Shown: piece after piece, positions 3,894-31,035 of the stretch
Layout: every line of letters starts with the position of its first letter
Numbering within the stretch: the stretch's first letter is position 1
Source of the DNA: a virus
Virus record (IMG/VR): IMGVR_UViG_3300032291_002455
Span: 1-34,001 of that record
Reading direction: 5' to 3' (one strand)
Length of the DNA: 34,001 bases
Program-made: the position numbers and the translations under genes
Notes under the pieces: generated by a model
What the model saw: only the letters and a program-made list of their open reading frames with translations
Database searches by the model: none
What the model was told of the DNA's origin: nothing

Positions 3894-4027
3894 TTGGCAG
3901 ACCTAAGTGTGGGTTCTGTATGACAGGACACCACCAAGACTGTAAAAAAGAAATCAAGTACTACGACAAAACTTGGGTGTGTGAATGTGCCCACGAAGTA
4001 AAAGAGCAAGATAAACTCATTGAGTGA
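3878..4027 (+). CDS. Small zinc-ribbon protein (49 aa)
   Basis: The ATG at 3878 lies inside the end of the glycosyltransferase gene, with AGGA just upstream. The protein begins MAPEVIGRPKCGFCMTGHH and has C11, C14, H18/H19 and C22, followed by CEC and H near residues 36-40, enough ligands for one or two zinc ions. Its TGA overlaps the GTG start of the Mom-like gene (GTGA). The tight overlap on both sides supports a real gene. Function unknown. Confidence 0.7.
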   Translation: MAPEVIGRPKCGFCMTGHHQDCKKEIKYYDKTWVCECAHEVKEQDKLIE

Positions 4028-4689
4028 TTGATTACACCATAAGACCTGTTGCGTCAAAAGACGCTAACCTGATGGTTATAGAAAATCACTATCTCCACCG
4101 AAGAGCCAGCACTATGTTTGCTTATGGTTTATTCGATGGCGAAGAAATGATTGGTTGCGTAATTTACGGAAAGCCAGCATCCCCCTCAGTTTGTGTTGGA
4201 GTTTGTGGCAAAGAAGAATCTTCTAATGTTTTAGAACTCACTCGCTTATGGATAAAAGATGGCACTCCTAAAAACACAGAGTCATATCTGATTGGCCGTA
4301 GCCTAAGACTTTTGCCTAAGGAAAAAGATATAGTAATCTCTTACGCTGAAATTGGTGCTGGTCATATCGGAATTGTTTACCAAGCGACTAACTGGATTTA
4401 CACTGGAATGTCCGACCGCCATGTTGAGTGGAGACTGGATGGAAAATCTGGGTCGCACTCTCGTCATATCTTTGATGCTCACGGTGGAGTGAATGGTGCG
4501 AAAGCATACTATGGTGATAGGCTTGAAAGACACGAGCGACCACGAAAGCATCGCTATGTGTATTTCAACTCTTCTTCTAAACAGAGGAAGAAAGAACTGC
4601 TGGATAAGTTGAAATATAAAATCCAGCCTTACCCAAAGAAAGATACAAAAGATGAGTTGGATAACAAATCTATTCAAGAAGAAGCCTAA
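4024..4689 (+). CDS. Mom-like DNA base modification protein (GNAT-related)
   Basis: Resembles phage Mu Mom and its relatives, which change adenine in DNA to a carbamoylmethyl form and so protect phage DNA from restriction. The diagnostic parts are ELTRLWIKDG (71-80), GRSLRLL and SYAEIGAGHIGIVYQ (106-120) followed by ATNWIYTG (121-128), the conserved core of this GNAT-like family. The C-terminus is long and basic (KHRYVYF, then many K and R), which could help DNA binding. It starts at a GTG overlapping the previous stop. The small lysine-rich gene overlaps its end by 38 bases. Mom alone has not been shown to need the neighbouring glycosyltransferase, but the close linkage suggests a DNA hypermodification module. 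The family call is firm; the chemistry is inferred. Confidence 0.85.
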   Translation: MIDYTIRPVASKDANLMVIENHYLHRRASTMFAYGLFDGEEMIGCVIYGKPASPSVCVGVCGKEESSNVLELTRLWIKDGTPKNTESYLIGRSLRLLPKEKDIVISYAEIGAGHIGIVYQATNWIYTGMSDRHVEWRLDGKSGSHSRHIFDAHGGVNGAKAYYGDRLERHERPRKHRYVYFNSSSKQRKKELLDKLKYKIQPYPKKDTKDELDNKSIQEEA

Positions 4690-8100: not shown

Positions 8101-8176
8101 AACCAGGTTACCCTTTTTTCCATGCACGCATGGTTTCCATGCTGACGCATGGAAAAACAGGGGACCTGGTTTTTTG
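8101..8176 (+). terminator. Long palindrome with T-tail: CCATGC hairpin family, copy 2
   Basis: AACCAGGT-CCCTTTTTTCCATGC pairs with GCATGGAAAAACAGGGG-ACCTGGTT, arms of about 26 bases with few mismatches, followed by TTTTT. This is the most complete member of the dispersed hairpin family and should work as a terminator after the 77-aa gene. Confidence 0.8.
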
Positions 8177-8233: not shown

Positions 8234-8297
8234 GTTCGCTCACAGCGAACAAGATAATCTTGACATCTGGGAATAAATCTGGAATGATTTAGTTATA
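8234..8297 (+). promoter_or_regulatory. ClgR-box-like palindrome plus sigma-R/H-type promoter P1
   Basis: GTTCGCT-CAC-AGCGAAC (8234-8250) is a perfect palindrome that contains CGCTCACAGCG, matching the CGCYNANRGCG core of ClgR sites as I recall it. GGGAAT (8269-8274), 17 bases and GTTATA (8292-8297) follow. The palindrome centre is 50 bases before the GTT. TTGACA at 8260 precedes the GGGAAT. Confidence 0.8.
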
Positions 8298-8303
8298 GAT
8301 AGT

Positions 8304-8354
8304 ATGAACCAAATAGAAACACCCCAGAAAAAAGATTTCCAAAACCAGGAATAA
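8304..8354 (+). CDS. Possible leaderless 16-aa peptide
   Basis: The ATG lies 12 bases after the GTT of promoter P1, where the transcript should begin, so it would be a leaderless ORF of 16 codons (MNQIETPQKKDFQNQE). It runs into the second GGAAT element. It may be a leader peptide or chance. Confidence 0.3.
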   Translation: MNQIETPQKKDFQNQE

Positions 8355-8376
8355 ATCTGGAAGAAGTTTGGTTCTA
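8347..8376 (+). promoter_or_regulatory. Degenerate sigma-R/H-type promoter P1b
   Basis: AGGAAT, 18 bases, GTTCTA. The stretch CAGGAATAAATCTGGAA repeats the P1 -35 area (GGGAATAAATCTGGAA), suggesting a local duplication. Confidence 0.45.
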
Positions 8377-8433
8377 CTTATTACAACTGAATAAAAAGTC
8401 AAGGACACGCCAAAAAAAGTTTTTGAAATGAAC

Positions 8434-8463
8434 TTGACAAGTGTAAGACCCTGTGCTTATACT
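8434..8463 (+). promoter_or_regulatory. Sigma-70-type promoter for the AAA/VWA operon
   Basis: TTGACA (8434-8439), 18 bases, TATACT (8458-8463). Start site about 8470, roughly 36 bases before the GTG at 8506. Confidence 0.85.
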
Positions 8464-8505
8464 TTCTAATACCAAATACAAATGCGTAAATTACAAGGAG
8501 ACCAA

Positions 8506-9033
8506 GTGAACGCAAAGACAGAAAAAGACTGTGCTGGCAAAGCACTTTACCTAGAGTTCCGTAAAGAGAACTACACCTACCAAATGATTGCCACTCCACC
8601 TGCAATAGATGTGGATGGCAACTTCATCCCTGCGTGTGCTATGGAGAGAAGACTCTCTTCTTATCACCCACGCAAGAACTGGAACTTTACCAGCGTTCCT
8701 GTGAACGACTCATTCAAGATTGAGCGTGATGCAAGTGGCGATTTCTCACAGATAGATTTGACATCTGCTGGCGAGATTGGTGCTCTTCACATTCAGCGTT
8801 TGTTCGCTCGCACCATTGACTCTCTATTCCACAGAGGTTGGACTTTGTTCAAGCAACCTGTGGCAGTAGAAGTAACTTACAAGGACTTGGCAACAATCAA
8901 GTCTGGTAAGACATCCAATGACCTTGTTAGGCGTATCGAGCGTTCTCGCAAGCACTTTGGATTCCCGGAAGAACTCTTCGACCAACCAGTCGTTGAGCCA
9001 AGTCCAACAATCATACTGACACCAGTAGTCTAA
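8506..9033 (+). CDS. Conserved-looking hypothetical protein upstream of AAA+/VWA pair (175 aa)
   Basis: The GTG at 8506 follows AAGGAG (8495-8500), so it is preferred to an upstream in-frame ATG at 8482. The protein is soluble and mixed alpha/beta, with a single cysteine cluster neither dense nor paired. I do not recognise a domain. It ends 15 bases before the AAA+ ATPase and shares its promoter, so it probably acts with the ATPase and the VWA protein, perhaps as a substrate or adaptor. This link is inferred from the operon only. Confidence 0.75.
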   Translation: MNAKTEKDCAGKALYLEFRKENYTYQMIATPPAIDVDGNFIPACAMERRLSSYHPRKNWNFTSVPVNDSFKIERDASGDFSQIDLTSAGEIGALHIQRLFARTIDSLFHRGWTLFKQPVAVEVTYKDLATIKSGKTSNDLVRRIERSRKHFGFPEELFDQPVVEPSPTIILTPVV

Positions 9034-9048
9034 GAATAGGAGACCATT

Positions 9049-10080
9049 ATGACTACAATCAACCCAACACCAATCCAGCAAGCAGTTGCTTGGACACGAG
9101 ACCAAGTTAGACTGCACCCAAATCTGCCAGAACTATTAAACGCAGTCGTGGGTCAAACTCTAAACTCGGTTTCTGCATCAGACCTTAACCTTGTATTTGA
9201 CGAGGCAACTGGTAAAGCAGTTATTCGTAATCGTGATGCAAATCCAGTTAGGAAAATTATGAACGCAGTCGATGCTCTCGCTGGCGAAAGTTTTTACCTG
9301 CGACCAAATGGTCACAAGTATTACACTCGCTCGTGGGGTCAGCACACTGATGTTGAAGTTGTTCGCAACCAAAGAACCAGTGAGCGTGGAAAGTCAATCC
9401 TGCTCTATGGTGCTCCGGGAACTGGCAAGACTGCTATGTTCGAGGGTGCGTTTGGTGACGACCTAATCACAGTTCTTGGAACTGGCGACACCGAAGTTGG
9501 CGACCTAGTTGGTGGCTATGTTCAGACTGTCTCTGGTGGTTTCGAGTGGGTGGATGGGCCGCTAGTTCAGGCAGCAGAACAAGGTAAGGTCTTACTAATC
9601 GACGAGATTGGTCTGATTGACCCTAAGGTTCTTTCAGTTGTCTATGGACTTATGGATGGTCGTAAAGAACTCAAAGTAACTGCAAACCCTGAACGAGCAA
9701 TCGTTAAGGCTCAACCCGGTTTCTTTGTGGTTGCTGCGACTAACCCTAACGCTCCCGGTGTAAATCTTTCAGAGGCACTTCTATCTCGCTTTGGTATTCA
9801 AGCAGAAATGACTACTGATTGGTCACTAGCCAAGAAGTTAGGCGTTCCAGCACAAGCAGTAACTTGTGCACAGAACCTGTTCAAAAAGCAACAGTCTGAT
9901 GAGGTCAACTGGTCTCCACAGATGCGTGAACTTTTGGACTTCCGTGACATCGCAGAAGACTTGGGAACTGAATGGGCTGTAAGCAATCTAATTGCTCAAG
10001 CACCATTCGAGGACAGAGCGATTGTCGCAGATGTATTTACTCGTGTCTTTGGCACAGAGTTCAAGCCAGCCAAAATCTAG
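9049..10080 (+). CDS. AAA+ ATPase of the MoxR/CobS-like type
   Basis: Hydrolyses ATP to remodel a partner, usually together with a VWA protein. Walker A is GAPGTGKT (121-128), Walker B VLLIDE (181-186), sensor 1 is the asparagine in ATNPN (near 232), and EALLSRF (242-248) provides the arginine finger. This order and the ATNPNAPG motif fit MoxR, CbbQ and CobS relatives. The first 100 residues are specific to this protein. In cells CobS works with CobT in cobalt insertion, and similar pairs occur in phages under the name cobaltochelatase, without proof of that activity. The next gene encodes the VWA partner. RBS AGGAGA lies upstream. Confidence 0.9.
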   Translation: MTTINPTPIQQAVAWTRDQVRLHPNLPELLNAVVGQTLNSVSASDLNLVFDEATGKAVIRNRDANPVRKIMNAVDALAGESFYLRPNGHKYYTRSWGQHTDVEVVRNQRTSERGKSILLYGAPGTGKTAMFEGAFGDDLITVLGTGDTEVGDLVGGYVQTVSGGFEWVDGPLVQAAEQGKVLLIDEIGLIDPKVLSVVYGLMDGRKELKVTANPERAIVKAQPGFFVVAATNPNAPGVNLSEALLSRFGIQAEMTTDWSLAKKLGVPAQAVTCAQNLFKKQQSDEVNWSPQMRELLDFRDIAEDLGTEWAVSNLIAQAPFEDRAIVADVFTRVFGTEFKPAKI

Positions 10081-10167
10081 GTCTCCCAAACAGAGATTTT
10101 GGCTAAAGGGAGGGAGTGGGTCGACACAATCCCCACTCTCTCCACCCCAAAACTTTTTCAGAAACTT

Positions 10168-10197
10168 GGGAATAAATGTTGACTATTCGCAGTTATA
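10168..10197 (+). promoter_or_regulatory. Sigma-R/H-type promoter P2
   Basis: GGGAAT, 18 bases, GTTATA, about 37 bases before the VWA gene. A sigma-70-like TTGACT-N16-TATACA overlaps it (about 10179-10206), so the promoter may be read by two sigma factors. No ClgR-like palindrome lies upstream. Confidence 0.7.
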
Positions 10198-10234
10198 CCC
10201 TATACAATAGATACATAACCCCGAAAGGACTCAA

Positions 10235-12112
10235 ATGAGCCACTACAAATTAGATACTAAGCCAGTAGGTCGCACGCACTATGACTGGCTAGGCGTTGGT
10301 GCTAGCGTTGGAAAACTGGTCAACCAGTGGTCGCTACGCAACGACCTAGTTGTTGGTCTGGTCGAAGAGACCACCATTGGTGCACCTGCTTGTTTCAACC
10401 CTGCCAGTGCCGAGATTGAAGTTTGCATCAGCAAAGCATTTGGCGTTGGCGTTACTGCTAAAGAAGTTGGTGAACTTACCCAGCGTAAGAACCAACTAAA
10501 GAACGCTGTTGCTACTGGTGCGATTTACCACGAGGCACTTCACGCTCGTGTTTCACGCTGGTCATTAGAGCAAGCAGCCAAAGACCTAACTCCAAGAGAG
10601 TTGCGTTTCATGCACTCTATGGAAGAGTCTCGCATTGAGTTCTGGGGTTGCAAGTATGTTCCACAGAACAGAACCCTACTTCGTGCTTGTGCGATTGAGA
10701 TTGTTATGGGCGACCTAGAATCTCACATTGAAAATGTTTCTAAGGTTGATGCCGCTGCGAACCTTGCGTTGCTAACTTTGGCTCGTGTTGATGCTGGCGT
10801 TCTTGACGAGAGAGACATTGTTGACTCTGTTCAAAAAATCCTTACCGAAGTTTTGAGCGAAGAAGTTATTTCTAAGTTGCGTGCTATCTGGAAAGATTTC
10901 CAGAACCACCAAGACCACGCTAACGCTCTTCCACTTTACGACCTAACTCGTGAGTTCCTAAAAGTTCTAGACGAGCGTAAAGAAGAGACTGGCGAAGAGT
11001 CTGGCGAAGAGCCGGGCGAGGGCGATTGCTCAAAGCCGGGTGGAGAGCCGGGAACTCCTAATGGTTCTGGCAAGGGCAACCCAACACCAGAACAGATTAA
11101 AGAGTTCAAGGACTTTATCGAAAAGGTCAAGGATGCTATCCAAGACATTAAAGAGCAAGTTCAGATTGCGAACCAGACTGACCTAGATGATGAAATCGAT
11201 TCAGAAGAACGCAAAGAAGAAGTTGCTGCTCGTGAGCAAAAAGCAAATCAGCAGAAAGAAAACAAAAAAGAATCTAACAAGGTTTTTGAAAACACTGGAA
11301 CTGATTCTCACATCACTACTGCTGGAACTCGTTCACACCTAGTTGAGTCTCGCAACCCAACTGGCGATGAAGTTGCTAGTGCGAATCGAATCGCTAACGC
11401 TCTGCGTAAAGCAAAGTATCGTGAGCGTTCACAGACTCGCATTGGTAGCGTTGTTCCACCGGGGCGTTTGCGTTCTCGTGCTGTTGTTCAAGGTCAAGCA
11501 CAAAAGGCTCGTGGTATCTTTACACCAGTCGAGGCTTGGAGAACTACTAAGCGTAAGACCACAGAAGACCCAACGCTGAATGTTGGCATTATGGTTGACA
11601 TCTCTGGTTCTATGCGACCAGCAATGACACCAATGGCGATTACTGCTTGGGTTATGAGTGAGGCTGTTCACAGAGTTCAAGGTAAATCAGCAATGGTTTA
11701 CTACGGTCAGGATGTATTCGCACCACTAAAGCCGGGACAGCGTTTGAGCAAGGTCAACACTTTCACTGCGAACGATTCTACGGAAGAGTTTGACAGAGCG
11801 TTAAAGGCTCTAGACGGTGGCTTGGGTATCACTCACGCTGACGGTGCTAAGTTGCTTGTAATCGTGTCTGACGGTCATTACCGAGCAGACCAGAAAGCAA
11901 AGGCACGCAAGATGCTGAAAGAGGCTGACCGTAATGGCGTGGCTATCTTGTGGCTAACCTTTGACGGTAAAGTCGCTGAACCGACTGAACTGTTGAGTGG
12001 AACTGCTGGCAAGGTTGTATCGCTGGCGAGCAACGAATCACCGACCAGAGCATCACAGGTTATCGGCGAGACCGCAGCCAAAGTTCTATCGGCTATCGGT
12101 TCAAGGGTCTAA
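10235..12112 (+). CDS. CobT-like protein: HExxH metallopeptidase-like domain plus VWA domain (625 aa)
   Basis: Partner of the upstream AAA+ ATPase. Residues 96-107 read GAIYHEALHARV, containing HEALH, an HExxH zinc motif, followed by a conserved-looking MEESRIE (129-135) that could give the third ligand. An acidic and G/P-rich linker spans about 246-345 (EETGEESGEEPGEG). The C-terminal VWA domain has an intact MIDAS motif DISGSM (455-460) and VIVSDGHYR further on. This layout, peptidase-like domain then acidic linker then VWA, is known in CobT and DUF2201-type proteins. The start is supported by GAAAGGA. Its biological target in the phage cycle is unknown; true cobalt chelation is doubtful without other cobalamin genes. 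Confidence 0.9.
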   Translation: MSHYKLDTKPVGRTHYDWLGVGASVGKLVNQWSLRNDLVVGLVEETTIGAPACFNPASAEIEVCISKAFGVGVTAKEVGELTQRKNQLKNAVATGAIYHEALHARVSRWSLEQAAKDLTPRELRFMHSMEESRIEFWGCKYVPQNRTLLRACAIEIVMGDLESHIENVSKVDAAANLALLTLARVDAGVLDERDIVDSVQKILTEVLSEEVISKLRAIWKDFQNHQDHANALPLYDLTREFLKVLDERKEETGEESGEEPGEGDCSKPGGEPGTPNGSGKGNPTPEQIKEFKDFIEKVKDAIQDIKEQVQIANQTDLDDEIDSEERKEEVAAREQKANQQKENKKESNKVFENTGTDSHITTAGTRSHLVESRNPTGDEVASANRIANALRKAKYRERSQTRIGSVVPPGRLRSRAVVQGQAQKARGIFTPVEAWRTTKRKTTEDPTLNVGIMVDISGSMRPAMTPMAITAWVMSEAVHRVQGKSAMVYYGQDVFAPLKPGQRLSKVNTFTANDSTEEFDRALKALDGGLGITHADGAKLLVIVSDGHYRADQKAKARKMLKEADRNGVAILWLTFDGKVAEPTELLSGTAGKVVSLASNESPTRASQVIGETAAKVLSAIGSRV

Positions 12113-12220
12113 CGGCTCGTGTAGGGGTCGGCTTGCTAAACGGCAAGCCTATCCCTATAATAAATAACGGCAAGCCTAACGGCTCGCCTAAACGACAAAG
12201 AGACGGCAAGCGTAATAGCG
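12112..12220 (+). repeat. ACGGCNNGC repeat island 2
   Basis: Five to six copies in 110 bases, near 12112, 12138, 12167, 12179 and 12203, all in the same orientation (AACGGCAAGCC, AACGGCTCGCC, GACGGCAAGCG). They fill the gap between the VWA gene and the next gene. Confidence 0.85.
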
Positions 12221-12241
12221 TGCCAGATAAGGAGACTCACG

Positions 12242-12652
12242 GTGGGTCAGTATCACAGATTAGTAAACATAGATAAGCAAGAGGTCGTAGACCCTCACGG
12301 CTTGGGTCTAGGCTCAAAGCAATGGGAGAACCAAGTTGGATGCGAGGGCTCGTTAGCAGATGCTATGTATGTCCTCACAATGACAAGTGCCAGTGCTGGT
12401 GGTGGAGATTTGCCACTCACAGACATCTCTGGTCGTTGGTGTGGAGATAGAGTTCTGATTGTAGGAGACTACACAGAGGCAGATGCAGTTCCAGGATTCA
12501 CTGGGGCTGATGCGATTTATCAACTCTCCACGACTCCACAATACAAAGACATTACTGGCGAAGTGCGTGAGGCGTTCTCCAAAATCTTTGAGATTGCTTA
12601 TGTCCAAGAGAACATTGGCAGTCATACATTCTGGAACAGAACCCTCGTCTAG
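12242..12652 (+). CDS. Conserved hypothetical protein, GQYHRLVN family (136 aa)
   Basis: GTG start with AAGGAG upstream. It begins MGQYHRLVNIDKQEVVDPHGLG, which recalls a small family seen in phages and actinobacterial genomes with GQYHR at the N-terminus and no known function. CGDRVLIVGDYTEAD and HTFWNRTLV are further landmarks. Terminated 15 bases downstream. It may be read from the VWA operon through the repeat island, as no promoter is seen in between. Confidence 0.8.
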   Translation: MGQYHRLVNIDKQEVVDPHGLGLGSKQWENQVGCEGSLADAMYVLTMTSASAGGGDLPLTDISGRWCGDRVLIVGDYTEADAVPGFTGADAIYQLSTTPQYKDITGEVREAFSKIFEIAYVQENIGSHTFWNRTLV

Positions 12653-12666
12653 CCTCTAAATAAAAT

Positions 12667-12694
12667 AATCCCCTGCAAGTCAGGGGATTTTTTA
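12667..12694 (+). terminator. Intrinsic terminator
   Basis: AATCCCCTG, five-base loop, CAGGGGATT, then TTTT. Directly follows the 136-aa gene. Confidence 0.9.
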
Positions 12695-12707
12695 TGCCCG
12701 AAAAATA

Positions 12708-12772
12708 GGGTGTCCACTTTTTCCATGCACGAATGTTTGTTCCATGCTTCGCATGGAAAAACATAAGACCTG
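12708..12772. repeat. CCATGC hairpin family, copy 3
   Basis: Left arm GGGTGTCCACTTTTTCCATGC, right arm GCATGGAAAAAC followed by ATAAGACCTG. An inner CCATGCTTCGCATGG hairpin is also present. It is placed between a terminator and the ClgR-box promoter P3. Confidence 0.8.
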
Positions 12773-12807
12773 CCAGCCCCTTATGCTTTTTCTTCCCTCT
12801 CGCCTTC

Positions 12808-12871
12808 GTTCGCTAGGGGCGAACAAGAAATCTTGACAATCAGGAATGAAATGCCATACGCTTAGGTTATA
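12808..12871 (+). promoter_or_regulatory. ClgR-box-like palindrome plus sigma-R/H-type promoter P3
   Basis: GTTCGCTAGGGGCGAAC (12808-12824), then AGGAAT (12842-12847), 18 bases, GTTATA (12866-12871). Palindrome centre to GTT is 50 bases. TTGACA at 12833. Confidence 0.75.
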
Positions 12872-12904
12872 GTTAGAGTAATGACAAAACGATTGGAGAC
12901 CAAA

Positions 12905-13186
12905 ATGGAATACTCAACACTTTTCCCAACAGTAGTTCTAGTTGCTCGCTCTCAGGGCGAGCGTGGGCAGTATGGTGGCAGAAAGGCTTACAAGATTTAT
13001 GTAAGAGCAGTATCAGAAAATAGTTGGTGCGTTTTTATGTCTTGGGGCAAAGAAGAAATGCCTAACTCTTGGATGGGCAGTGAAAAGATTTTTGCCACAG
13101 AGCAGAAAGCAGTTCAGTTTGCTTGGGACAAGTTCTACGAGAAGATTGACAAAGGCTACACAGAACGAGTGTTCGAAACTAATTAA
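12905..13186 (+). CDS. WGR-like domain protein (93 aa)
   Basis: I choose the ATG at 12905, with TTGGAGA at 12893-12899; an ATG at 12881, 15 bases after the promoter GTT, would give eight more residues from a nearly leaderless message. The pattern YKIYVRAVSENSW, FMSWGKEE and then AVQFAWDKFYEKIDKGY resembles a WGR domain, in which a W-G-R/K motif is followed by a helix ending in K-x-x-KGY. WGR domains bind nucleic acid in PARP-type proteins and occur alone in bacteria and phages. The match is by eye and partial. Confidence 0.65.
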   Translation: MEYSTLFPTVVLVARSQGERGQYGGRKAYKIYVRAVSENSWCVFMSWGKEEMPNSWMGSEKIFATEQKAVQFAWDKFYEKIDKGYTERVFETN

Positions 13187-13194
13187 AAATAAAC

Positions 13195-13233
13195 TTGACA
13201 TTCGGGAATAAATCCTGAACAATAGTAGTTATA
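13195..13233 (+). promoter_or_regulatory. Sigma-R/H-type promoter P4
   Basis: TTGACA (13195-13200), then GGGAAT (13204-13209), 18 bases, GTTATA (13228-13233). No palindrome of the ClgR type upstream. Confidence 0.8.
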
Positions 13234-13267
13234 GTTATTATAGAAGTTCTTTTGAAAGGAGAACAAA

Positions 13268-13504
13268 ATGGCTGAACAAATCATCACTCAGTTAATCAAG
13301 GTAAGCGAGCACCCAGATAATCTGGCTGGCTGGATTGCCGAAGATGGCTCTTATGGTATGTGCGACATACTCGTATTCAACGAGAGCGACCTACAAGAAG
13401 AGCACTGGCAGATTTTCAATGAACTCGGAGACAACGAGAGATTTGCTTTTGTCAAAGCAGTAATAAACAAAGAAGACCTATCACAATGGGAAGAGCAGGT
13501 ATAA
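13268..13504 (+). CDS. Acidic hypothetical protein (78 aa)
   Basis: GAAAGGAGAACAAA precedes the ATG. The protein starts MAEQIITQLIKVSEHPDNLAGW, is acidic and helical toward its end, and has no recognised domain. It is followed at once by a zinc-ribbon gene, and both are read from promoter P4. Confidence 0.75.
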   Translation: MAEQIITQLIKVSEHPDNLAGWIAEDGSYGMCDILVFNESDLQEEHWQIFNELGDNERFAFVKAVINKEDLSQWEEQV

Positions 13505-13506
13505 AA

Positions 13507-13797
13507 ATGAGCGAACAGTTCAAGTGCCCTACTTGTAGTGGCTACATCCCTAACAACGAAAACATTGGTGCTTACGCTGGTGCTATCTCACGCAAGGACA
13601 ACAAGACAGAAATCTGTTCTGCGTGTGGCACTAAGGAGGCTATGGAAGATTTCTTCGGAGTTCAGGAAGAAGTAGTCTGCCCTCAGTGCGACGAGCCAAC
13701 TTCAAAAGAGGCTCTTGCTCAGTGGGAGATGTGCCACGACTGCGACAATCAAATGTGTGTCAAGTGTGGAGAAATCGACTGCGACCACGAAGTTTAA
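13507..13797 (+). CDS. Multi-CxxC zinc-ribbon protein (96 aa)
   Basis: Starts MSEQFKCPTCSGYIP. Five CxxC pairs are present (CPTC, CSAC, CPQC, CHDC, CVKC) plus CDHE at the end, enough for two or three zinc ions. ICSACGTKEAMEDFFG matches a motif common in small phage zinc proteins, where CxxC is followed by a G-x-x-EA segment. A role in binding nucleic acid or protein is likely but not shown. The alternative start at 13486 overlaps the previous gene and is less well supported. Confidence 0.8.
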   Translation: MSEQFKCPTCSGYIPNNENIGAYAGAISRKDNKTEICSACGTKEAMEDFFGVQEEVVCPQCDEPTSKEALAQWEMCHDCDNQMCVKCGEIDCDHEV

Positions 13798-13816
13798 AAA
13801 CTTAGGCGTGTTGGGC

Positions 13817-13846
13817 TTGACAAATGTCAGCCCAGCACCCTATACT
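13817..13846 (+). promoter_or_regulatory. Sigma-70-type promoter
   Basis: TTGACA, 18 bases, TATACT, about 43 bases before the next gene. The extended string CTTGACAAATGTCAG is repeated at the 24.4 kb promoter. Confidence 0.9.
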
Positions 13847-13888
13847 AAATAAGTAATAATAAAGTTCTCTTGAAAGGAGACCTGCCAA

Positions 13889-14296
13889 ATGGCAACTTAC
13901 TACGAATCAGCAAGAACCAACACTTTCTTGGTCAAGGACATGGAGGCGTTCAAAAACGAACTCGAAATGTTCAAGGCTCTTGAAGTGATTACCAGCGAGC
14001 ACGAAGACAAGACTTATGTTTGCTTGCTCAACAAAAACGAAAATGGATTTCCGTTCGAGGCGTATGACGACATTCTTGGAGAGTATGTCGAAATCGACTG
14101 GGAGGCAATCTTCGCTAAGCACTTACAGGATGATTCAGTAGCAATCATTATGGGTGCTGGTGCTGAGAAACTTCGCTACATTCATGGCTACGCCATTGCG
14201 TTCAACAACAAAGGTGAGACCAGAATGATTCACCTTACTGACATTTATAAGATTGCCGAAGAACTTGGCAAAGATGTAAAGAAAGCAGAATACTAA
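13889..14296 (+). CDS. Conserved phage hypothetical protein, MATYYESARTN type (135 aa)
   Basis: AAGGAG precedes the ATG. The N-terminus MATYYESARTNTFLVKD resembles a family that is widespread in phages and mobile elements and is thought to be a small globular alpha/beta protein; no biochemical role is established. EIDWEAIFAKHLQDDSVAIIMGAGAEKLRYIHGYA is the core. Separated by a single base from the next gene. Confidence 0.8.
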   Translation: MATYYESARTNTFLVKDMEAFKNELEMFKALEVITSEHEDKTYVCLLNKNENGFPFEAYDDILGEYVEIDWEAIFAKHLQDDSVAIIMGAGAEKLRYIHGYAIAFNNKGETRMIHLTDIYKIAEELGKDVKKAEY

Positions 14297-14297
14297 A

Positions 14298-14831
14298 ATG
14301 GAAACTAAAATCACTAAGCACACTTTCTATCCAGATGGAGAGAATGGTTTCATTCCTGATGTTCGCTTAGTTAGCGTTTCAGGAGACGACAGAGACATGG
14401 GAGTTCACTTCCTATGGCGTGGCACTAGGCAATGGCTCGCTATGAGCAAGGACAACCCTTATGGCGATAACCAATGGCTAGTAGTCGAGACTGACTACTC
14501 CGAAGAGTTCCAAGAGTGGCTTGACGAAGAGTTAAGTGGCTACGACAGTTTGGAAACTATGTTCGGAACTCTCCAAGAAAACACTAACTACAACATTGTT
14601 GTGGAAAGTAAGTTCAAAGTATCTTGGTCGTTTGAACACGAAGTTACAGGGTCAGAGATTCTTATCGTTATGAAAGATGTAACTGCCAAAGATGAATACG
14701 AGGCTGAGGTCATTGGTCAAGACATACTTGAAAAGAGTGGCTTGGACATTTACAAGGCTGAGTTAATCTTCCACGAAAGTTGGATTGACGAAATCGTTGA
14801 GACCAAAGTTGGAGGTGAAGAGAATGAGTAA
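14298..14831 (+). CDS. Acidic hypothetical protein (177 aa)
   Basis: Begins one base after the previous stop. It has an aromatic-rich central region (VHFLWRGTRQWLAMSKDNPYGDNQW) and an acidic C-terminal half. No cysteine motif or membrane segment is visible and no family is recognised. It overlaps the next gene by eight bases, indicating coupling. Confidence 0.75.
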   Translation: METKITKHTFYPDGENGFIPDVRLVSVSGDDRDMGVHFLWRGTRQWLAMSKDNPYGDNQWLVVETDYSEEFQEWLDEELSGYDSLETMFGTLQENTNYNIVVESKFKVSWSFEHEVTGSEILIVMKDVTAKDEYEAEVIGQDILEKSGLDIYKAELIFHESWIDEIVETKVGGEENE

Positions 14832-15027
14832 GCAAGTTTATTTCGTAGTTTATTACGACACCGAAGATAAGCAACTTTACCAAGACACTGGGACTTTATT
14901 GGCTCGCTTTGGTGAGGGTTCTATCTGGGACAGCGAAGAAGAAGAGTGGAATCACGAAACAGAAATCTCTGTCTTAGCAGAGGCTCAGAACGCAATGGAC
15001 ACTGTAATCAGTAATACAGCAGTCTAA
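14824..15027 (+). CDS. Acidic hypothetical protein (67 aa)
   Basis: The ATG at 14824 follows GGAGGTGAAGAG, a strong ribosome binding site lying in the end of the preceding gene; an ATG at 14785 is in frame but lacks one. MSKQVYFVVYYDTEDKQ could be a beta strand pair. Highly acidic middle (DSEEEEWNHETE). Function unknown. Confidence 0.75.
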   Translation: MSKQVYFVVYYDTEDKQLYQDTGTLLARFGEGSIWDSEEEEWNHETEISVLAEAQNAMDTVISNTAV

Positions 15028-15030
15028 GCA

Positions 15031-15059
15031 TTGACAGCGAGAGCCACTTACCCTATACT
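15031..15059 (+). promoter_or_regulatory. Sigma-70-type promoter
   Basis: TTGACA, 17 bases, TATACT, directly after the 67-aa gene and about 67 bases before the next start. Confidence 0.9.
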
Positions 15060-15126
15060 TGTAGGGTAGGTGGCAATCGCCATTTCCAAAAAGAAGTAAA
15101 ATGATTTAGAAAAGAAAGTTGGACTT

Positions 15127-15393
15127 ATGAAAAAGTTTAAAGTAATCGCAGAAATAAACTTCGAGGTTTATGACACTGACGAGTTTTCGGCTGAGCGTCA
15201 AGGGCGTATTGCCCTAGCACGATTCGTTGGAGACCCTGATGCAAATGGCTACAAAGACGAATACGCAGACCTGCCTACTCCGTCTATCCACCCAATCAGA
15301 GTTAGAGTCGCAGACGAGAATGGAAAGTTCTTGGCTGGCTGGAATCCAGCAGACTTAGAAGAGGCTGAACAGCCAGAAAAAGACGCAGAGTAA
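15127..15393 (+). CDS. Small hypothetical protein (88 aa)
   Basis: Starts MKKFKVIAEINFEVYDTDEFSAERQGRIALARFVGD, a likely beta-alpha unit, with an acidic tail. The ribosome binding site is weak (AAAGAAAG). It stands first in the transcript that includes the ClgR-like regulator. Family unknown. Confidence 0.75.
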   Translation: MKKFKVIAEINFEVYDTDEFSAERQGRIALARFVGDPDANGYKDEYADLPTPSIHPIRVRVADENGKFLAGWNPADLEEAEQPEKDAE

Positions 15394-15422
15394 TCTGCCC
15401 CGAATAGAAAGACAAAACGACA

Positions 15423-15707
15423 ATGAACCTAGCACAAGCACTTGGCTACACGATTAGAAAGATTCGTATTGCCAATGGTATGACACTCAGAGACCTGAGC
15501 GTAAAGTCAAACACTTCACTTGGCTACTTGTCTGAGATTGAACGAGGAACGAAAGAAGTTTCTTCCACAGTCTTGGAGAGTATCGCTAAGGGATTGAACA
15601 CGCCACTTTATTCCATTGTTTCAAGTTCGGCTTTGGAGATGATGTATTCATCTACCGAAATCTTTGAAAAGCCAAGCGAGAGCATGGAAAATCTAGTAAC
15701 CCTATAA
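15423..15707 (+). CDS. ClgR-like XRE-family transcription regulator (94 aa)
   Basis: An HTH_XRE protein. The helix-turn-helix region (about 21-42: TLRDLSVKSNTSLGYLSEIE then RGTKEVSST) closely resembles actinobacterial ClgR, in which TLRE-VS-SLGYLSE-ERG-KEASSELL is the hallmark. ClgR activates clpP1P2, clpC and related stress genes in Corynebacterium, Mycobacterium and Streptomyces, often beside sigma-H or sigma-R promoters. The phage protein lacks the usual long C-terminal part and ends with LVTL. The same window holds five ClgR-box-like palindromes, so it probably controls phage promoters and perhaps host Clp genes. Its own promoter (15031) is sigma-70-like. The family call is strong; targets are inferred. 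Confidence 0.85.
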   Translation: MNLAQALGYTIRKIRIANGMTLRDLSVKSNTSLGYLSEIERGTKEVSSTVLESIAKGLNTPLYSIVSSSALEMMYSSTEIFEKPSESMENLVTL

Positions 15708-15727
15708 AAAGCATAAGAAAGACAAAG

Positions 15728-15865
15728 ATGAATACTCTAATGATGTTGTCGAACGAATCGACTGTTGATGTGAACCTACTCGCTGAGAGTCAGGAACTAT
15801 TCGACCTAATCAAAAAGAACACCCCTTACAACGAACTTTTGGAGTGGGTCAACGAGAACTTCTAG
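15728..15865 (+). CDS. Small acidic protein (45 aa)
   Basis: MNTLMMLSNESTVDVNLLAESQ... is a 45-codon frame 20 bases after the ClgR-like gene, with only a weak purine-rich site upstream. The sequence is helical with an acidic C-terminus (LLEWVNENF). Its stop lies at the edge of the palindrome of promoter P5. Probably real given the spacing, but no function can be given. Confidence 0.55.
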   Translation: MNTLMMLSNESTVDVNLLAESQELFDLIKKNTPYNELLEWVNENF

Positions 15866-15928
15866 TTCTCTGTGGGCGAACAAAAAACTTTGGCATTTCG
15901 GAATAAAATGTCGTTGTATCGTGTTATA
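15865..15928 (+). promoter_or_regulatory. Half-degenerate ClgR-box-like palindrome plus sigma-R/H-type promoter P5
   Basis: GTTCTCT-GTG-GGCGAAC (15865-15881), then CGGAAT (15899-15904), 18 bases, GTTATA (15923-15928). Centre-to-GTT distance is again 50 bases. TTGGCA replaces TTGACA. Confidence 0.7.
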
Positions 15929-16015
15929 CTAAGTGTAGCAAGAAAGCGAAAGCCAGATTGCCACCCCAGACCAAAAGGCTCTGGGAAATTACGAAGAGAC
16001 GAAGGATGTGGTCAA

Positions 16016-16339
16016 GTGGCTAAAACCCTTACCCCAACTGTAAAAGGCAAGACTGTTGAACTTGGTTGGTCAGCAGAAGTTAGACAAGCGTTAGAGATGT
16101 ATCGTAACGCTCTCGAAGCGAAGAAAGAGGCAGACAAGGCTAAGGCTGAGGCTGAGGTCATTCTTCGTGAGAAACTCGGTGACGCTGAGTTCGCTACCAT
16201 TGGTGGCTCTAAGGCATTCAAGATGTCTCAGGTCATTATGGAAAGAGTGGACAACGCAAAGTTGTTAGCCGAGTTCCCAGCAGTCCACGCAGAAGTTCTG
16301 GTTGACGGTTCTTACGAGTTCATCAAGACCGTAAACTAG
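16016..16339 (+). CDS. Coiled-coil protein resembling a YqaJ-recombinase C-terminal region (107 aa)
   Basis: GTG start with GAAGGA at 16001-16006. ALEMYRNALEAKKEADKAKAEAEVI forms a helix, then ILREKLGDAEFATIGGSKAFKMS follows. This helix-plus-LGDAE-GG pattern is seen at the C-terminus of YqaJ-type phage recombinases and in stand-alone phage proteins. No nuclease residues are present, so it would not be a recombinase by itself. The 85-base leader after promoter P5 contains a CCCAGA/TCTGGG stem (15965-15985). Confidence 0.65.
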   Translation: MAKTLTPTVKGKTVELGWSAEVRQALEMYRNALEAKKEADKAKAEAEVILREKLGDAEFATIGGSKAFKMSQVIMERVDNAKLLAEFPAVHAEVLVDGSYEFIKTVN

Positions 16340-16341
16340 CA

Positions 16342-16615
16342 ACGGCTTGGCGAGCAGTGGTTTCCCCATTGCTCGCCAAACGGCTAGCCGTATCACCTGA
16401 TACCTTAGTGCCTAAGATACACGGCTAGTCAAAACGGCAAGCCCCCTAATCTCCCCCTGTGAAGTCAGCAGGGATAACGGATAAAGGTTAGGGGGTTTTG
16501 TCATACCCTAACGGCTCGCCCTATACGGACAGCACGGCAAGCACAAACGGCAAGCCCCTTACAAGATAAACGGCTAGCCCCTAACGGCAAGCCTTTACGC
16601 ACATAACGGCAAGCC
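16342..16615 (+). repeat. ACGGCNNGC repeat island 3
   Basis: About ten copies in 270 bases, near 16342, 16380, 16420, 16434, 16510, 16533, 16545, 16569, 16582 and 16604, all oriented alike (CAAGCC, CTAGCC and CTCGCC endings). A strong stem (TTGGCGAGCA / TTGCTCGCCAA, 16347-16380) is built partly from repeat sequence. Confidence 0.85.
16443..16500 (+). terminator. Intrinsic terminator within repeat island 3
   Basis: CCCCCTAA pairs with TTAGGGGG across a structured loop (CCCTG/CAGGG inside) and is followed by TTTTGT. Confidence 0.75.
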
Positions 16616-16874
16616 TTTTGTGTTCTTATGTAATAAGCCCCCGTAGAACTCAACGGGTCGTCTTTTTGACGCTCTATGTATAGAGCGAACACAAACCCTA
16701 ACGGGTCGTCTTTTTTAAGAAATAGAAATGAGGGAGAAGCAGAAGCCCAGAGGAGATGACGCATGGAGAAAAAGCATAAGACCTTATGGAATAAAGCCAG
16801 ATGGAAGGGAGATGGAAGCGAAGGGGGGAAAGTAAAAGCATAAGAAGTGCTGAAGAGAGGAAGCAAAAAAATGT

Positions 16875-16945
16875 GGGTATCCAGTTTTTCCTTGCGAGCC
16901 TCAGATTTTTTATCCATGCCTCGCATGGAAAAACAAGGGACTTGA
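16875..16945. repeat. CCATGC hairpin family, copy 4
   Basis: GGGTATCCAGTTTTTCCTTGC on the left, CCATGCCTCGCATGGAAAAACAAGGGACT on the right. The left arm has CCTTGC instead of CCATGC. Confidence 0.7.
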
Positions 16946-17112
16946 CTTTTTTTGGATTTTGTTTTTTTTGTTTTCTTTTTTTTATTTTGGATTTGATTTT
17001 GATTTTGATTTTGATTTTGGATTTTTATTTTTAATCTTTTTTCGTTCCCAGTTATTTTATTTTGTTCCCAGTTATTTTGTTCCCAGTTATCTCATTTTGT
17101 TCCCATTTATCC
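16945..17112 (+). repeat. T-rich tract with tandem GATTTT and GTTCCCAGTTAT repeats
   Basis: A poly-T region changes into GATTTT repeats (about 16991-17022), then four imperfect copies of TTTTGTTCCCAGTTAT (about 17042-17112) lead straight into the ClgR-box-like palindrome. Low-complexity, strongly strand-skewed DNA. Confidence 0.75.
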
Positions 17113-17113
17113 T

Positions 17114-17177
17114 GTTCGCTCTGAGCAAACAAAAAAGATTGGCACTTGGGAATAAAAACCTTGCTTATCGTGTTATC
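17114..17177 (+). promoter_or_regulatory. ClgR-box-like palindrome plus sigma-R/H-type promoter P6
   Basis: GTTCGCT-CTG-AGCAAAC (17114-17130), then GGGAAT (17148-17153), 18 bases, GTTATC (17172-17177), centre-to-GTT 50 bases. The leader GGCACTAAGGAGGTGA that follows pairs fully with the 16S rRNA end. Confidence 0.75.
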
Positions 17178-17206
17178 TTATGTATAGGCACTAAGGAGGT
17201 GATTTT

Positions 17207-17362
17207 ATGAAGTGTAAAGTTTGGTTATTCACCAAGTATGACAACTCTATTCCTGCGACCTGCGTGGAGTTTGAGTGGGCAGATTTGGCTGTTGCGACTG
17301 CTTTTGTTCAATGGTTCAACCTGAACAATAGCGACAGACACGCCTCAATAGAGGCAGAGTAG
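17207..17362 (+). CDS. Small hypothetical protein (51 aa)
   Basis: MKCKVWLFTKYDNSIPATCVE... follows AAGGAGGTGA by five bases, the strongest Shine-Dalgarno type in the window. The first half is probably beta, the second helical (ADLAVATAFVQWFNL). It is the first gene behind P6. Nothing identifies its function. Confidence 0.7.
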   Translation: MKCKVWLFTKYDNSIPATCVEFEWADLAVATAFVQWFNLNNSDRHASIEAE

Positions 17363-17369
17363 TCCTGAG

Positions 17370-17396
17370 ACCTGAGCAAGTCCTAAAAAGGCTCAT
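17370..17396 (+). repeat. CCTGAGCAAG-AAAAAGGCTCA element, copy 1
   Basis: ACCTGAGCAAGT-TAAAAAGGCTCA contains a GAGC/GCTC stem. A close copy follows the gene ending at 18309. Both lie directly after a gene, as a weak terminator or processing site would. Confidence 0.6.
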
Positions 17397-17403
17397 ACAT
17401 ACA

Positions 17404-17421
17404 TTTCCTGGGTCCAGGAAA
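17404..17421. promoter_or_regulatory. Perfect palindrome TTTCCTGG-GT-CCAGGAAA
   Basis: Eight-base arms 17 bases before a GTG start; could be an operator or a hairpin controlling translation of the 79-aa gene. Confidence 0.5.
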
Positions 17422-17437
17422 CTACATAGGAGACAAA

Positions 17438-17677
17438 GTGAAAAGAAAACTAGAACTGGAAGTCAAAACTGTTGATACCATTTTGGACATTTTAAGTGGC
17501 TTGCTTCACGCTGGAATTGAAATGGAAAAGTTTTTGGAAAATGAGGGGCAACCTGTTCCTAAAAAACTTAGAAAACAAAATGCTAGAACTTTGATGGCTC
17601 ACATGGAACTGGCAATGGCACTTCGTTCAGTTGAGATTGCTGAACTGGAAGAAGTGTTCGCTCTCGAACAAAACTAA
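17438..17677 (+). CDS. Helical hypothetical protein (79 aa)
   Basis: GTG start with ATAGGAGAC upstream. MKRKLELEVKTVDTILDILSGLLHAG... is almost all helix with a leucine-rich pattern and basic middle (KKLRKQN). Probably read together with the 51-aa gene. A terminator follows directly. Family unknown. Confidence 0.75.
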   Translation: MKRKLELEVKTVDTILDILSGLLHAGIEMEKFLENEGQPVPKKLRKQNARTLMAHMELAMALRSVEIAELEEVFALEQN

Positions 17678-17685
17678 ATAAAAAG

Positions 17686-17716
17686 ATTCCACCTCGAAAG
17701 AGGTGGGATTTTTTTG
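17686..17716 (+). terminator. Intrinsic terminator
   Basis: ATTCCACCTC, GAAA loop, GAGGTGGGAT, then seven T. Very strong. Confidence 0.95.
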
Positions 17717-17726
17717 CCAAAAAATA

Positions 17727-17780
17727 GGGTCACCAATTTTTCCGTGCTTCAAGACTCGCATGGAAAAAGCGACCACCTGG
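17727..17780. repeat. CCATGC hairpin family, copy 5
   Basis: GGGTCACCAATTTTTCCGTGC, then GCATGGAAAAAGCGACCACCTGG. It sits 10 bases after the terminator, the same order as at 12.7 kb. Confidence 0.7.
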
Positions 17781-17848
17781 CTTCGCTTCGCTTCGCTCGC
17801 TTCTTCAGGTTCTTATGCTTTATCTGGTTTGATGAGTTGCCTCTGGCT

Positions 17849-17912
17849 GTTCGCCCTGAGCATACAAAAAAGATTGCTGTATGGGAAGAAAAAGCGAGGT
17901 TATTGTGTTATC
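17849..17912 (+). promoter_or_regulatory. Degenerate ClgR-box-like palindrome plus sigma-R/H-type promoter P7
   Basis: GTTCGCC-CTG-AGCATAC (17849-17865), GGGAAG (17883-17888), 18 bases, GTTATC (17907-17912), centre-to-GTT 50 bases. The 3' part and leader (GTTATCTTATGTATAGGCAC then TAAGGAGGTGA) are identical to P6, so these two arose by duplication. Confidence 0.75.
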
Positions 17913-17940: not shown

Positions 17941-18309
17941 ATGGAAAACTTACAGACAACAGAGGTGACGCTTACAAGCGACTGCACTTGCGTTGATGAG
18001 GATGGTAACTACATTGAAGAATGTTTTGGTTGCTGGGATGACTCTAAGTATGACTTAGGGGAGTTAGTATCAACTGTTCAGACTGAAAAAGGCTGGACTC
18101 AGGTTGCTGTCGAATACAAGGGAGTTTCTTGGCGTAGAGTTTCTGGCGAGTTCTTTATGGACTTCGATACCGAAAACTTGATTCAAGTATTCTCTCTCAA
18201 TGGCGACTTCAAGTTAGTGTTCACTTACACTGATGGCGAGTTATCGCTAGTTCGCTATTCGCATGATGAGCCAACTGGCACTGGCAAGATTACCTTTAAG
18301 GCAATCTAG
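17941..18309 (+). CDS. Hypothetical protein with N-terminal cysteine cluster (122 aa)
   Basis: Driven by P7 with AAGGAGGTGAAAA before the ATG. The N-terminus has SDCTCVDEDGNYIEECFGCW, four cysteines that may bind zinc. The rest is rich in beta-prone stretches (WTQVAVEYKGVSWRRVSG, FKLVFTYTDGELSLVRY). The family is not recognised. A second copy of the CCTGAGCAAG element follows its stop. Confidence 0.75.
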   Translation: MENLQTTEVTLTSDCTCVDEDGNYIEECFGCWDDSKYDLGELVSTVQTEKGWTQVAVEYKGVSWRRVSGEFFMDFDTENLIQVFSLNGDFKLVFTYTDGELSLVRYSHDEPTGTGKITFKAI

Positions 18310-28505: not shown

Positions 28506-28563
28506 TGACTTATTTATCACAAAATGATAACATAGGGTTATGAATAATACGGAAGGACAAAAT

Positions 28564-29532
28564 ATGTCTAAGAAACTAACAGTCGCATATAGCGACGACT
28601 ACCTGAACTGGAAACTAGGTTCGGGTGATGGAAATCACCCTACAAAGCCTATACGGGCAAAGATTGCTACTGGACATCTTCTAGAAGAACTTGGCTTGGA
28701 CAATGTAGAAATCATTGAGCCCGAGTTCAGAGATGGAGACAGAGCCAAGATTGAATCTATCCACGACCCCGTCTATGTGTCTCAGGTAATCGATGATGGA
28801 ATATCTTTTGACTGGACACAGCAAAGACCAGAGATGGGACATACCGCTGCTCAGATGTTCTCTGGCACAGTACGCCTAGTGGAGAAGATGCTGGCTGGCG
28901 AAACTCAGGTGGGGTTCAATCCTCAAGGTGCTAAGCATCACGCACAAGAGGGTTGGAGTGAAGGCTTCTGTGTCTTCAATGACTTTGCTTGGGCTGCCAA
29001 GGAGTTTGTGAAGAATGGGCTCAAGGTTGTTTACATTGACTGGGATGTCAATGCGGGCGATGGTGTTCAGAATCTGCTTGCGGATACTGACATCCCAACT
29101 TTCAGTATCCACGGACACGGAATCTATCCAACTCACTCGGACACTTGGCTTAGAGAAGCAGGTACTACCGAGAACTATGTCTATCAGAATGACGAGCAAC
29201 ACTGGTACAACTATTGCTTACAGCGAGGGCAAGGCGATGAGGCATTCAAGTGGGCTATTGATGAGATTGCCAAGAAGGTTGCCGAGTACAAGCCTGATGT
29301 GATTCTGCTAGCAACTGGGGCAGATGGACACGAAGGCGAGAGTTGGGGCCTAAAGTACACCTATGCTGGCTACGACTATGCTTCTGGTGTAGTGGCAGAA
29401 CTAGCAAACAAGTATGCGGATGGTCGTGTACTGATTGGTGGTGCGGGTGGATACCAACCACTCACTCACACACCGAGAGTATGGGCAAATGTGGTAGAGA
29501 ATATCTATCAGCAAACTCAAAAATCAGAGTAA
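28564..29532 (+). CDS. Histone deacetylase superfamily protein with altered zinc site (322 aa)
   Basis: Belongs by motif order to the HDAC/AcuC/acetylpolyamine amidohydrolase superfamily, which removes acetyl groups with a catalytic zinc. Seen: GAKHHAQEGWSEGFCVFNDF with the paired histidines H125 and H126; VYIDWDVNAGDGVQ (156-169); ATGADGHEG with D254; and GGAGGYQPLTH with Y297. In most members the second motif reads D-x-D-x-H; here the metal-binding histidine is N163. D161 and D254 are intact, so zinc may bind weakly or the protein may act on another substrate. Length fits the family. Start chosen at 28564 behind GGAAGGAC. Possible substrates are acetylated host proteins or polyamines. Confidence 0.85.
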   Translation: MSKKLTVAYSDDYLNWKLGSGDGNHPTKPIRAKIATGHLLEELGLDNVEIIEPEFRDGDRAKIESIHDPVYVSQVIDDGISFDWTQQRPEMGHTAAQMFSGTVRLVEKMLAGETQVGFNPQGAKHHAQEGWSEGFCVFNDFAWAAKEFVKNGLKVVYIDWDVNAGDGVQNLLADTDIPTFSIHGHGIYPTHSDTWLREAGTTENYVYQNDEQHWYNYCLQRGQGDEAFKWAIDEIAKKVAEYKPDVILLATGADGHEGESWGLKYTYAGYDYASGVVAELANKYADGRVLIGGAGGYQPLTHTPRVWANVVENIYQQTQKSE

Positions 29533-29964: not shown

Positions 29965-30119
29965 TTTAGCCTAAATTGCTATTTTTTTATTGTAAGCGAT
30001 AAGAAATAACAATTCCACCAGTAGCAAACACTACTTGCTTAGTTTTGTCTACCGATATAACCTTTTATTAGGAACAACTGACCCACTTGGGTCTCAATAA
30101 CAGAAAGAAAAATGACACA

Positions 30120-30668
30120 ATGAGTAAAATCAAAAAGGCAAACCAGAGTTTGCCATCCAACATAAAGCGGATGCTTGATGATTCTCTAACCTCTGCCGAT
30201 AGAGATAACCTGATTCGTTCACTGAACTTAGTTGGATGGACACAGAGTAGTATCGCTCGCTCAGTTGAGATAACCAGAGAGCGTATTCGTCAGATATGTA
30301 TAACACCGATGGATGAATCTGCTAAGACAGACTTCACATTGCCACTGCCACCACAGCACCAAGTAAAAGAAAAGCGAGAGTTCATTGAGCCTGACCCACA
30401 ATCATTGGCTCGCTTGCTTGAACTACAGCCAATGGCACAGCAGGTTCGCTCTAATGCTATGCGGTTTAGGGCAGAGGCAGAAGAGTACAGTGCTCTAGTC
30501 GCTAAACTACACAATGAAGATGGTGTTACGCTATACCGATTGGCTCTTCGCCTAGGGGTGACTCACTCAGCGTTGAGATTTAGATTGGCTCGCTACGGAT
30601 ATAAGACATCAGACAAGGGCGAGAGCAAAGTATATAAACCAATCAAGTCCAAGAACCGAATTCGCTAA
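30120..30668 (+). CDS. Regulator with two helix-turn-helix motifs, one sigma-4-like (182 aa)
   Basis: The first motif (39-60: GWTQSSIARSVEITRERIRQ) resembles region 4.2 of sigma factors, where T-RERIRQIE contacts the -35 element; the second (136-162: VTLYRLALRLGVTHSALRFR) is a separate HTH. Between them lies a helical linker. No region 2 is present, so it is not a complete sigma factor, but it could guide host RNA polymerase or act as a repressor. The ATG at 30120 is chosen over an upstream TTG (30087). A terminator follows, and the large terminase gene is close downstream, so late-gene control is possible. Confidence 0.7.
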   Translation: MSKIKKANQSLPSNIKRMLDDSLTSADRDNLIRSLNLVGWTQSSIARSVEITRERIRQICITPMDESAKTDFTLPLPPQHQVKEKREFIEPDPQSLARLLELQPMAQQVRSNAMRFRAEAEEYSALVAKLHNEDGVTLYRLALRLGVTHSALRFRLARYGYKTSDKGESKVYKPIKSKNRIR

Positions 30669-30995: not shown

Positions 30996-31035
30996 CCTAA
31001 GCCGTTTAGCCTGGGTTGCCAGTTTTTCTTTGCAT

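Follow-up and report, generated by a model that had tools for sequence, protein, structure and literature searches.

The window analysed here, a 34-kb virus fragment (IMG/VR record IMGVR_UViG_3300032291_002455, positions 1 to 34,001), carries a gene for a ClgR-like transcription regulator and, in the same block, five candidate ClgR boxes, each located upstream of a SigH-type promoter (Table 1). The boxes precede phage genes encoding an AAA+ ATPase and small proteins, and no ClpP or ClpC match was found in the proteins scanned. By pattern match, the promoters of the window agree with the SigH/SigR-type sequence GGGAAT-N16-(C/G/T)GTT.

The five palindromes are of the type GTTCGCT-N3-AGCGAAC, with 0, 1, 2, 1 and 3 mismatches in boxes 1 to 5, respectively, and all of them lie where the original prediction, an earlier reading of this DNA, had placed them. 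Over the 12 positions of the arms GTTCGC-N5-GCGAAC, boxes 1 and 2 were perfect, and boxes 3 to 5 had 1-2 mismatches. Searching the whole window for this palindrome with up to 3 mismatches gave 8 matches where 1.25 were expected, a count that none of 100 shuffles attained. The remaining three matches (5095, 9361 and 30660) were located away from any GGAAT/GTT promoter.

By pattern, 12-13 promoters of the GGAAT/GTT class were identified in the window, five with a box (at most 3 mismatches in 12 positions) and at least seven without. The distance from the palindrome centre to the G of GTT was 50 bp at all five boxed promoters. At box 1, the -35 element lies 19 nt past the box and 22 nt ahead of GTT; at boxes 2 to 5, it lies 18 nt past the box and 23 nt ahead of GTT. 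Because the -35 element shifts by one base at box 1 while the 50 bp to the -10 element are kept, the boxes hold their spacing relative to the -10 element and not the -35 element. The claim that the spacing holds even at the shorter spacer was thus confirmed. Among offsets of 20-150, only 50 was occupied by boxes, and in 2000 dinucleotide-preserving shuffles there was never more than one promoter at any single offset. A chance origin of the palindromes was ruled out by the shuffles, in both count and offset.

Table 1. Boxes, promoters and genes of the regulated block in the window.
Feature	Position	Strand	Remark
Candidate ClgR box 1 GTTCGCTCACAGCGAAC	8234..8250	+	perfect dyad; 50 bp from centre to downstream GTT of promoter 1
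SigH-type promoter 1 (GGAATA...GTTAT)	8270..8296	+	spacer one base shorter than in the other four
183-aa protein, 3' of promoter 1	8482..9033	+	also a sigma70-like promoter at 8434-8463
AAA+ ATPase (AAA_5, MoxR/CobS-like), 3' of promoter 1	9049..10080	+	
SigH-type promoter without box	10169..10196	+	ahead of vWA/CobT-like gene (10235-12112)
Candidate ClgR box 2 GTTCGCTAGGGGCGAAC	12808..12824	+	
SigH-type promoter 2	12843..12870	+	ahead of small gene in 12881-13186, weak WGR similarity
SigH-type promoter without box	13205..13232	+	
Sigma70-like promoter TTGACA-17-TATACT	15031..15059	+	about 390-400 bp 5' of clgR-like gene
ClgR-like transcription regulator, 94 aa	15423..15707	+	C-terminus MENLVTL
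Small open reading frame (ORF), 45 aa, between clgR-like gene and box 3	15728..15865	+	stop codon adjoins box; read from sequence
Candidate ClgR box 3 GTTCTCTGTGGGCGAAC	15865..15881	+	
SigH-type promoter 3	15900..15927	+	
Protein 3' of promoter 3	16016..16339	+	longer ORF from 15872 with weak RecE-like PHROG similarity
Candidate ClgR box 4 GTTCGCTCTGAGCAAAC	17114..17130	+	
SigH-type promoter 4	17149..17176	+	51-aa small ORF 17207-17362 downstream
Candidate ClgR box 5 GTTCGCCCTGAGCATAC	17849..17865	+	most degenerate of the five
SigH-type promoter 5	17884..17911	+	
122-aa protein, 3' of promoter 5	17941..18309	+	

Operators and promoters at host clp genes

The published ClgR operator consensus is WNNWMGCYNNNRGCGWWS, and GTTCGCCGCCAGCGAAC is present in the ClgR-binding clpC1 probe of Mycobacterium tuberculosis (PMC2905415). 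The operator core given in the original prediction agrees with both, and the phage boxes match WNNWMGCYNNNRGCGWWS and GTTCGC-N5-GCGAAC in sequence. Among 30 host clpC upstream regions, 23 contained a box (shuffled mean 1.0), and in 15 the box preceded a SigH-type GTT by 40-56 bp (shuffled mean 0.0). Host boxes paired with SigH-type promoters were found at clpC at 51 bp (twice), at clgR itself at 53 bp, and at 56 bp in two recurring promoter families of a group resembling Brevibacterium. The joint ClgR/SigH layout that had been assumed for host genes is therefore present at clpC and clgR. The host distances differ by lineage (40-42, 47, 51-52 and 56), so that the fixed value of 50 is a trait of the phage.

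In Corynebacterium glutamicum, clgR and clpC are controlled by SigH/SigE, whose promoters have the form GGAACN-N16-CGTT (PMC10012870), and the -35/-10 spacing of the phage promoters equals that of this form. The phage promoters share with the SigH/SigR promoters of Actinobacteria, which belong to the ECF12 type of extracytoplasmic function (ECF) sigma factors, the GGAAT/GGAA -35 element, the GTT -10 element and the spacing between them, but they carry A, G or T before GTT, and their -10 element extends to GTTAT.

The ClgR-like protein

The gene at 15423-15707 had been predicted to encode a ClgR-like protein, and it does so by family, PDB sequence and predicted fold. Its best NCBIfam match was ClgR (E 1.2e-17), with 64 bits against the cut-off of 170 bits of the ClgR equivalog NF041677, and its best PDB sequence matches by phmmer were also ClgR (1e-11). 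The predicted fold had a confidence score (pLDDT) of 87.6 and matched 5woq with a template modelling (TM) score of 0.84 and a root-mean-square deviation of 0.9; the top ten PDB fold matches were the ClgR entries 5woq, 3f51 and 3f52, with TM scores of 0.74-0.84. The XRE helix-turn-helix (HTH) fold and the C-terminal helix are common to the phage protein and to ClgR of C. glutamicum (3f51/3f52), Mycobacterium smegmatis (5woq) and M. tuberculosis (Rv2745c). Mutation of L24, R25 and R43 of Rv2745c abolishes DNA binding (PMC2905415), and the counterparts L22, R23 and R41 of the phage protein were invariant in the phage and host sequences.

Alignment with host ClgR thus preserved the contact residues, but the phage proteins formed a distinct branch. 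In a tree of 126 sequences (unrooted, with few columns), 15 of 16 phage proteins formed one group apart from the 110 hosts, with support of 95/87, which points to an old phage branch and not to a fresh host gene. A recent capture of host clgR received no support from the tree. The idea that the phage copied the host circuit accordingly holds for the operator, the promoter layout and the presence of a ClgR-like gene, but not for a recent copy of host ClgR.

An Ala-Ala C-terminus is a Clp degradation signal in mycobacteria and Streptomyces (PMC5352834, PMC2905415). It was present in 86 of 110 host ClgRs and in 0 of 21 phage proteins. The ClgRs of Microbacteriaceae likewise lack this end, which weakens loss of the degron as a phage-specific stabilisation.

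A sigma70-like promoter 5' of the clgR-like gene was kept in six related phages, with 10-11 of 12 positions matching, and no SigH-type promoter was found within 700 bp upstream of the gene in these six. Taken together, the phage system shares with ClgR of Actinobacteria the DNA-contact residues, the operator sequence and the pairing of box and SigH-type promoter seen at clpC and clgR. It differs in the low family score, its own branch, the missing Ala-Ala end, the sigma70-like promoter of the regulator gene, and sites that front phage genes and not clp genes.

Conservation and distribution of the boxes

The related contigs L001/L172, L007/L173, L002-L006/L178-L182, L175/L176 and L177 share the gene order of the window and have both the boxes and a ClgR-like gene of 50-88% identity; L001/L172 and L002-L006/L178-L182 are 135-kb relatives. 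At orthologous sites, the box arms were mostly 89-96% identical, with a minimum of 77% for the right arm when the window is compared with L179, the most diverged pair. The upstream 30 bp, the -35/-10 spacer and the three central bases of the box were 40-56%, 42-55% and 25-67% identical, respectively. This profile bears on the reading in which the palindromes serve no regulator and are passengers in the duplication of a promoter cassette. Cassettes 3, 4 and 5 are alike at 65-86% over 91 nt (86% for cassette 5 against cassette 4), and a hairpin-like module lies ahead of boxes 1, 2, 4 and 5, as this reading would have it. However, the arms stay nearly unchanged between lineages while flanks and spacer diverge, and in L177 the boxes at 14126 and 15450 are kept even though the GGAAT -35 element is lost, so that mere passengers are very improbable. 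The hairpin-like module (CGCATGGAAAAACA...ACCTGG) is located at 8146-8175, 12750-12779, 16922-16951 and 17757-17786 and is possibly a terminator or a spreading cassette.

The distance from box to GTT was 50 at all five sites of L172 and L173, 51, 51, 50, 50 and 50 in L179, 45, 62, 50 and 51 in L175, and 50 and 61 in L177. At site 1, the -35 positions of the window and L173 are one base apart, and both sites are 50 from the -10 element. Site 2 in L177 and L175, at 61 and 62, lies about one helical turn beyond 50/51, and these natural changes in spacing would fit a dependence on the face of the helix.

In two 135-kb contigs, all boxes that deviate from GTTCGCT-N3-AGCGAAC at no more than 2 positions lay in a stretch of about 10 kb surrounding the clgR-like gene. 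In the roughly 119 kb scanned of one 135-kb contig, all twelve SigH-type promoters lay in one 15-kb block on one strand. A further ClgR box at L178:2977-2993 is located 5' of a sigma70-like promoter (TTGCCA-18-TATAAT).

To relate boxes to the regulator gene, 80 phage contigs with a related AAA+ ATPase were compared. Box plus promoter occurred only in contigs with a close (at least 59%) ClgR-like gene, or in the fragments L174 and L181, which end ahead of the position of that gene. The original prediction had taken palindromes in relatives without a ClgR-like gene as evidence against it; no box plus promoter was found in such relatives among the 80. The shared ancestry of this phage clade is a confounder of the co-occurrence. 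A broad viral scan for box plus promoter gave scattered single matches in unrelated contigs. The metagenome-assembled phage DSL-LC01 (PMC10611076) had no GGAATAA promoters, no close boxes in 1-45000 and no ClgR-like match. A gene of DSL-LC01 (L010:37959-38648) is annotated as an HslV protease subunit, with only a weak Pfam Proteasome match (0.0023), and searches of the window and of related contigs gave no homologue of it.

Proposed control of the boxed promoters

The carriers are a family of lake phages of actinobacteria. The terminase relatives of the window are Microbacterium phages, the transfer-messenger RNA (tmRNA) tag of a related phage is of the actinobacterial type, and ClgR was found in 35 of 39 small actinobacterial genomes.

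From the sequence comparisons, we consider it likely that phage ClgR, itself driven by sigma70, activates SigH-class phage promoters through the boxes, forming a small regulon built like the ClgR/SigH control of Clp in the host. Housekeeping polymerase at the sigma70-type promoter would make the ClgR-like protein, and its gene would be uncoupled from the stress sigma factor, unlike host clgR. A dimer of the protein would then occupy the GTTCGC-N5-GCGAAC boxes, whose centres lie 50 bp ahead of the -10 GTT and would be roughly 60 bp upstream of the start site. Class I-type activation of the five GGAAT-N16-GTT promoters would follow, these promoters being read by the RNA polymerase of the host with one of its ECF sigma factors, presumably SigH. 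The targets would be phage genes, the AAA+ ATPase gene among them, in the block of about 10 kb that surrounds the clgR-like gene. Conservation of the sigma70-like promoter, with no SigH-type promoter near, suggests a feed-forward order in which phage ClgR would come first and the SigH-type holoenzyme would then be helped.

Several observations weigh against this model. Since cassettes 3 to 5 are related by duplication, the five sites are not five independent events, and duplication or common descent accounts for part of the constancy of the spacing; the statistics implied by the original prediction thus exceed chance in shuffles but do not describe independent sites. Site 1 of L175, at 45, is out of helical phase, and two L177 boxes outlast their GGAAT -35 element. 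ClgR-like genes were found in 72 viral contigs, and the 62 more distant ClgR-carrying phages showed no box enrichment (45 against 39 for a reversed-pattern control), nor was a shared palindrome family seen in them by eye. The protein family therefore predates the regulon and must have other sites there. A perfect box occurred in none of the 39 small actinobacterial genomes, though the hosts may lie outside this set. Searching four related contigs with Pfam Sigma70_r2 revealed no sigma factor, so that the phage promoters occur without a recognisable sigma factor of their own, and the use of SigH is deduced from promoter sequence. The same search gave no candidate for a phage-encoded ECF sigma factor as promoter reader. 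An HTH protein at 30087-30668 of the window, 5' of the terminase large subunit gene at 31030, showed weak Sigma70_r4 similarity (6.3e-05, below cut-off).

The main rival explanation is that the host's own ClgR is the main reader of the boxes, which would place phage genes under the protein-quality or oxidative stress response of the host, while the phage protein would have another job or only modulate. The wide occurrence of ClgR in the small genomes, the identity of the known operator with the boxes, and the distant phage ClgR-like proteins that occur without such boxes are all consistent with it. It is nevertheless unlikely, as boxes were confined to phages carrying a close ClgR-like gene, where they clustered within about 10 kb of it, and as the 39 genomes, possibly not those of the hosts, had no perfect box.

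The sign of regulation could also be reversed, the phage protein repressing or timing the boxed promoters or competing with host ClgR for the sites instead of activating. Phage XRE/Cro-type proteins are frequently repressors, and the PHROG matches of the protein were mostly repressors or regulators. The box, however, is located well 5' of the -35 element without overlapping the -35 or -10 element, in the same position as at host clpC promoters, and ClgR is an activator of clp genes (PMC2905415); repression or competition is accordingly improbable.

Activation of the phage promoters by phage ClgR may be part of a wider scheme, which we regard as speculative and rather doubtful. Phage ClgR, made early from the sigma70 promoter and without the Clp degron, would also bind host clp promoters, and with one and the same signal the phage would raise Clp protease for takeover and turn on its own genes. 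The regulator and the operator-promoter grammar would have been copied and the feedback brake removed.

No report of a phage-encoded ClgR was found in the literature searched. Phage-borne WhiB- and Lsr2-type regulators are likewise host-type transcription factors kept in actinophage genomes, and a WhiB homologue is also present in this phage group (PMC10611076). In the case of ClgR, unlike those cases, the cognate operators and the stress-promoter layout are in the phage as well. It seems unusual for a phage to combine a host-type stress activator with the matching operator at a fixed spacing from ECF-sigma-type promoters. If the proposed activation is correct, infection of abundant freshwater actinobacteria would be wired to the proteostasis stress response of the host. 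The natural variants at 45, 50/51 and 61/62 bp offer a ready system for the activation of ECF-sigma promoters by an upstream XRE protein, and the small predicted regulon is open to simple binding and reporter assays.

Other features were observed in the window and its relatives. The related 135-kb phage G755 carries a tmRNA gene (L127:1991-2336) with the tag AESRSAFALAA and a tRNA-Gly gene. tmRNA tags are Clp substrates, and the phage tmRNA is possibly a further connection to Clp. In noncoding DNA of the window, ACGGCAAGCC / ACGGCTCGCC-like repeats form arrays at 12120-12240 and 16340-16620, and similar repeats were found in the relatives L184, L187 and L248. The window also encodes a histone-deacetylase-family protein (28540-29532, 6.6e-46) and a protein of the Mom family, a DNA-modification family (4024-4689, 5.4e-44).

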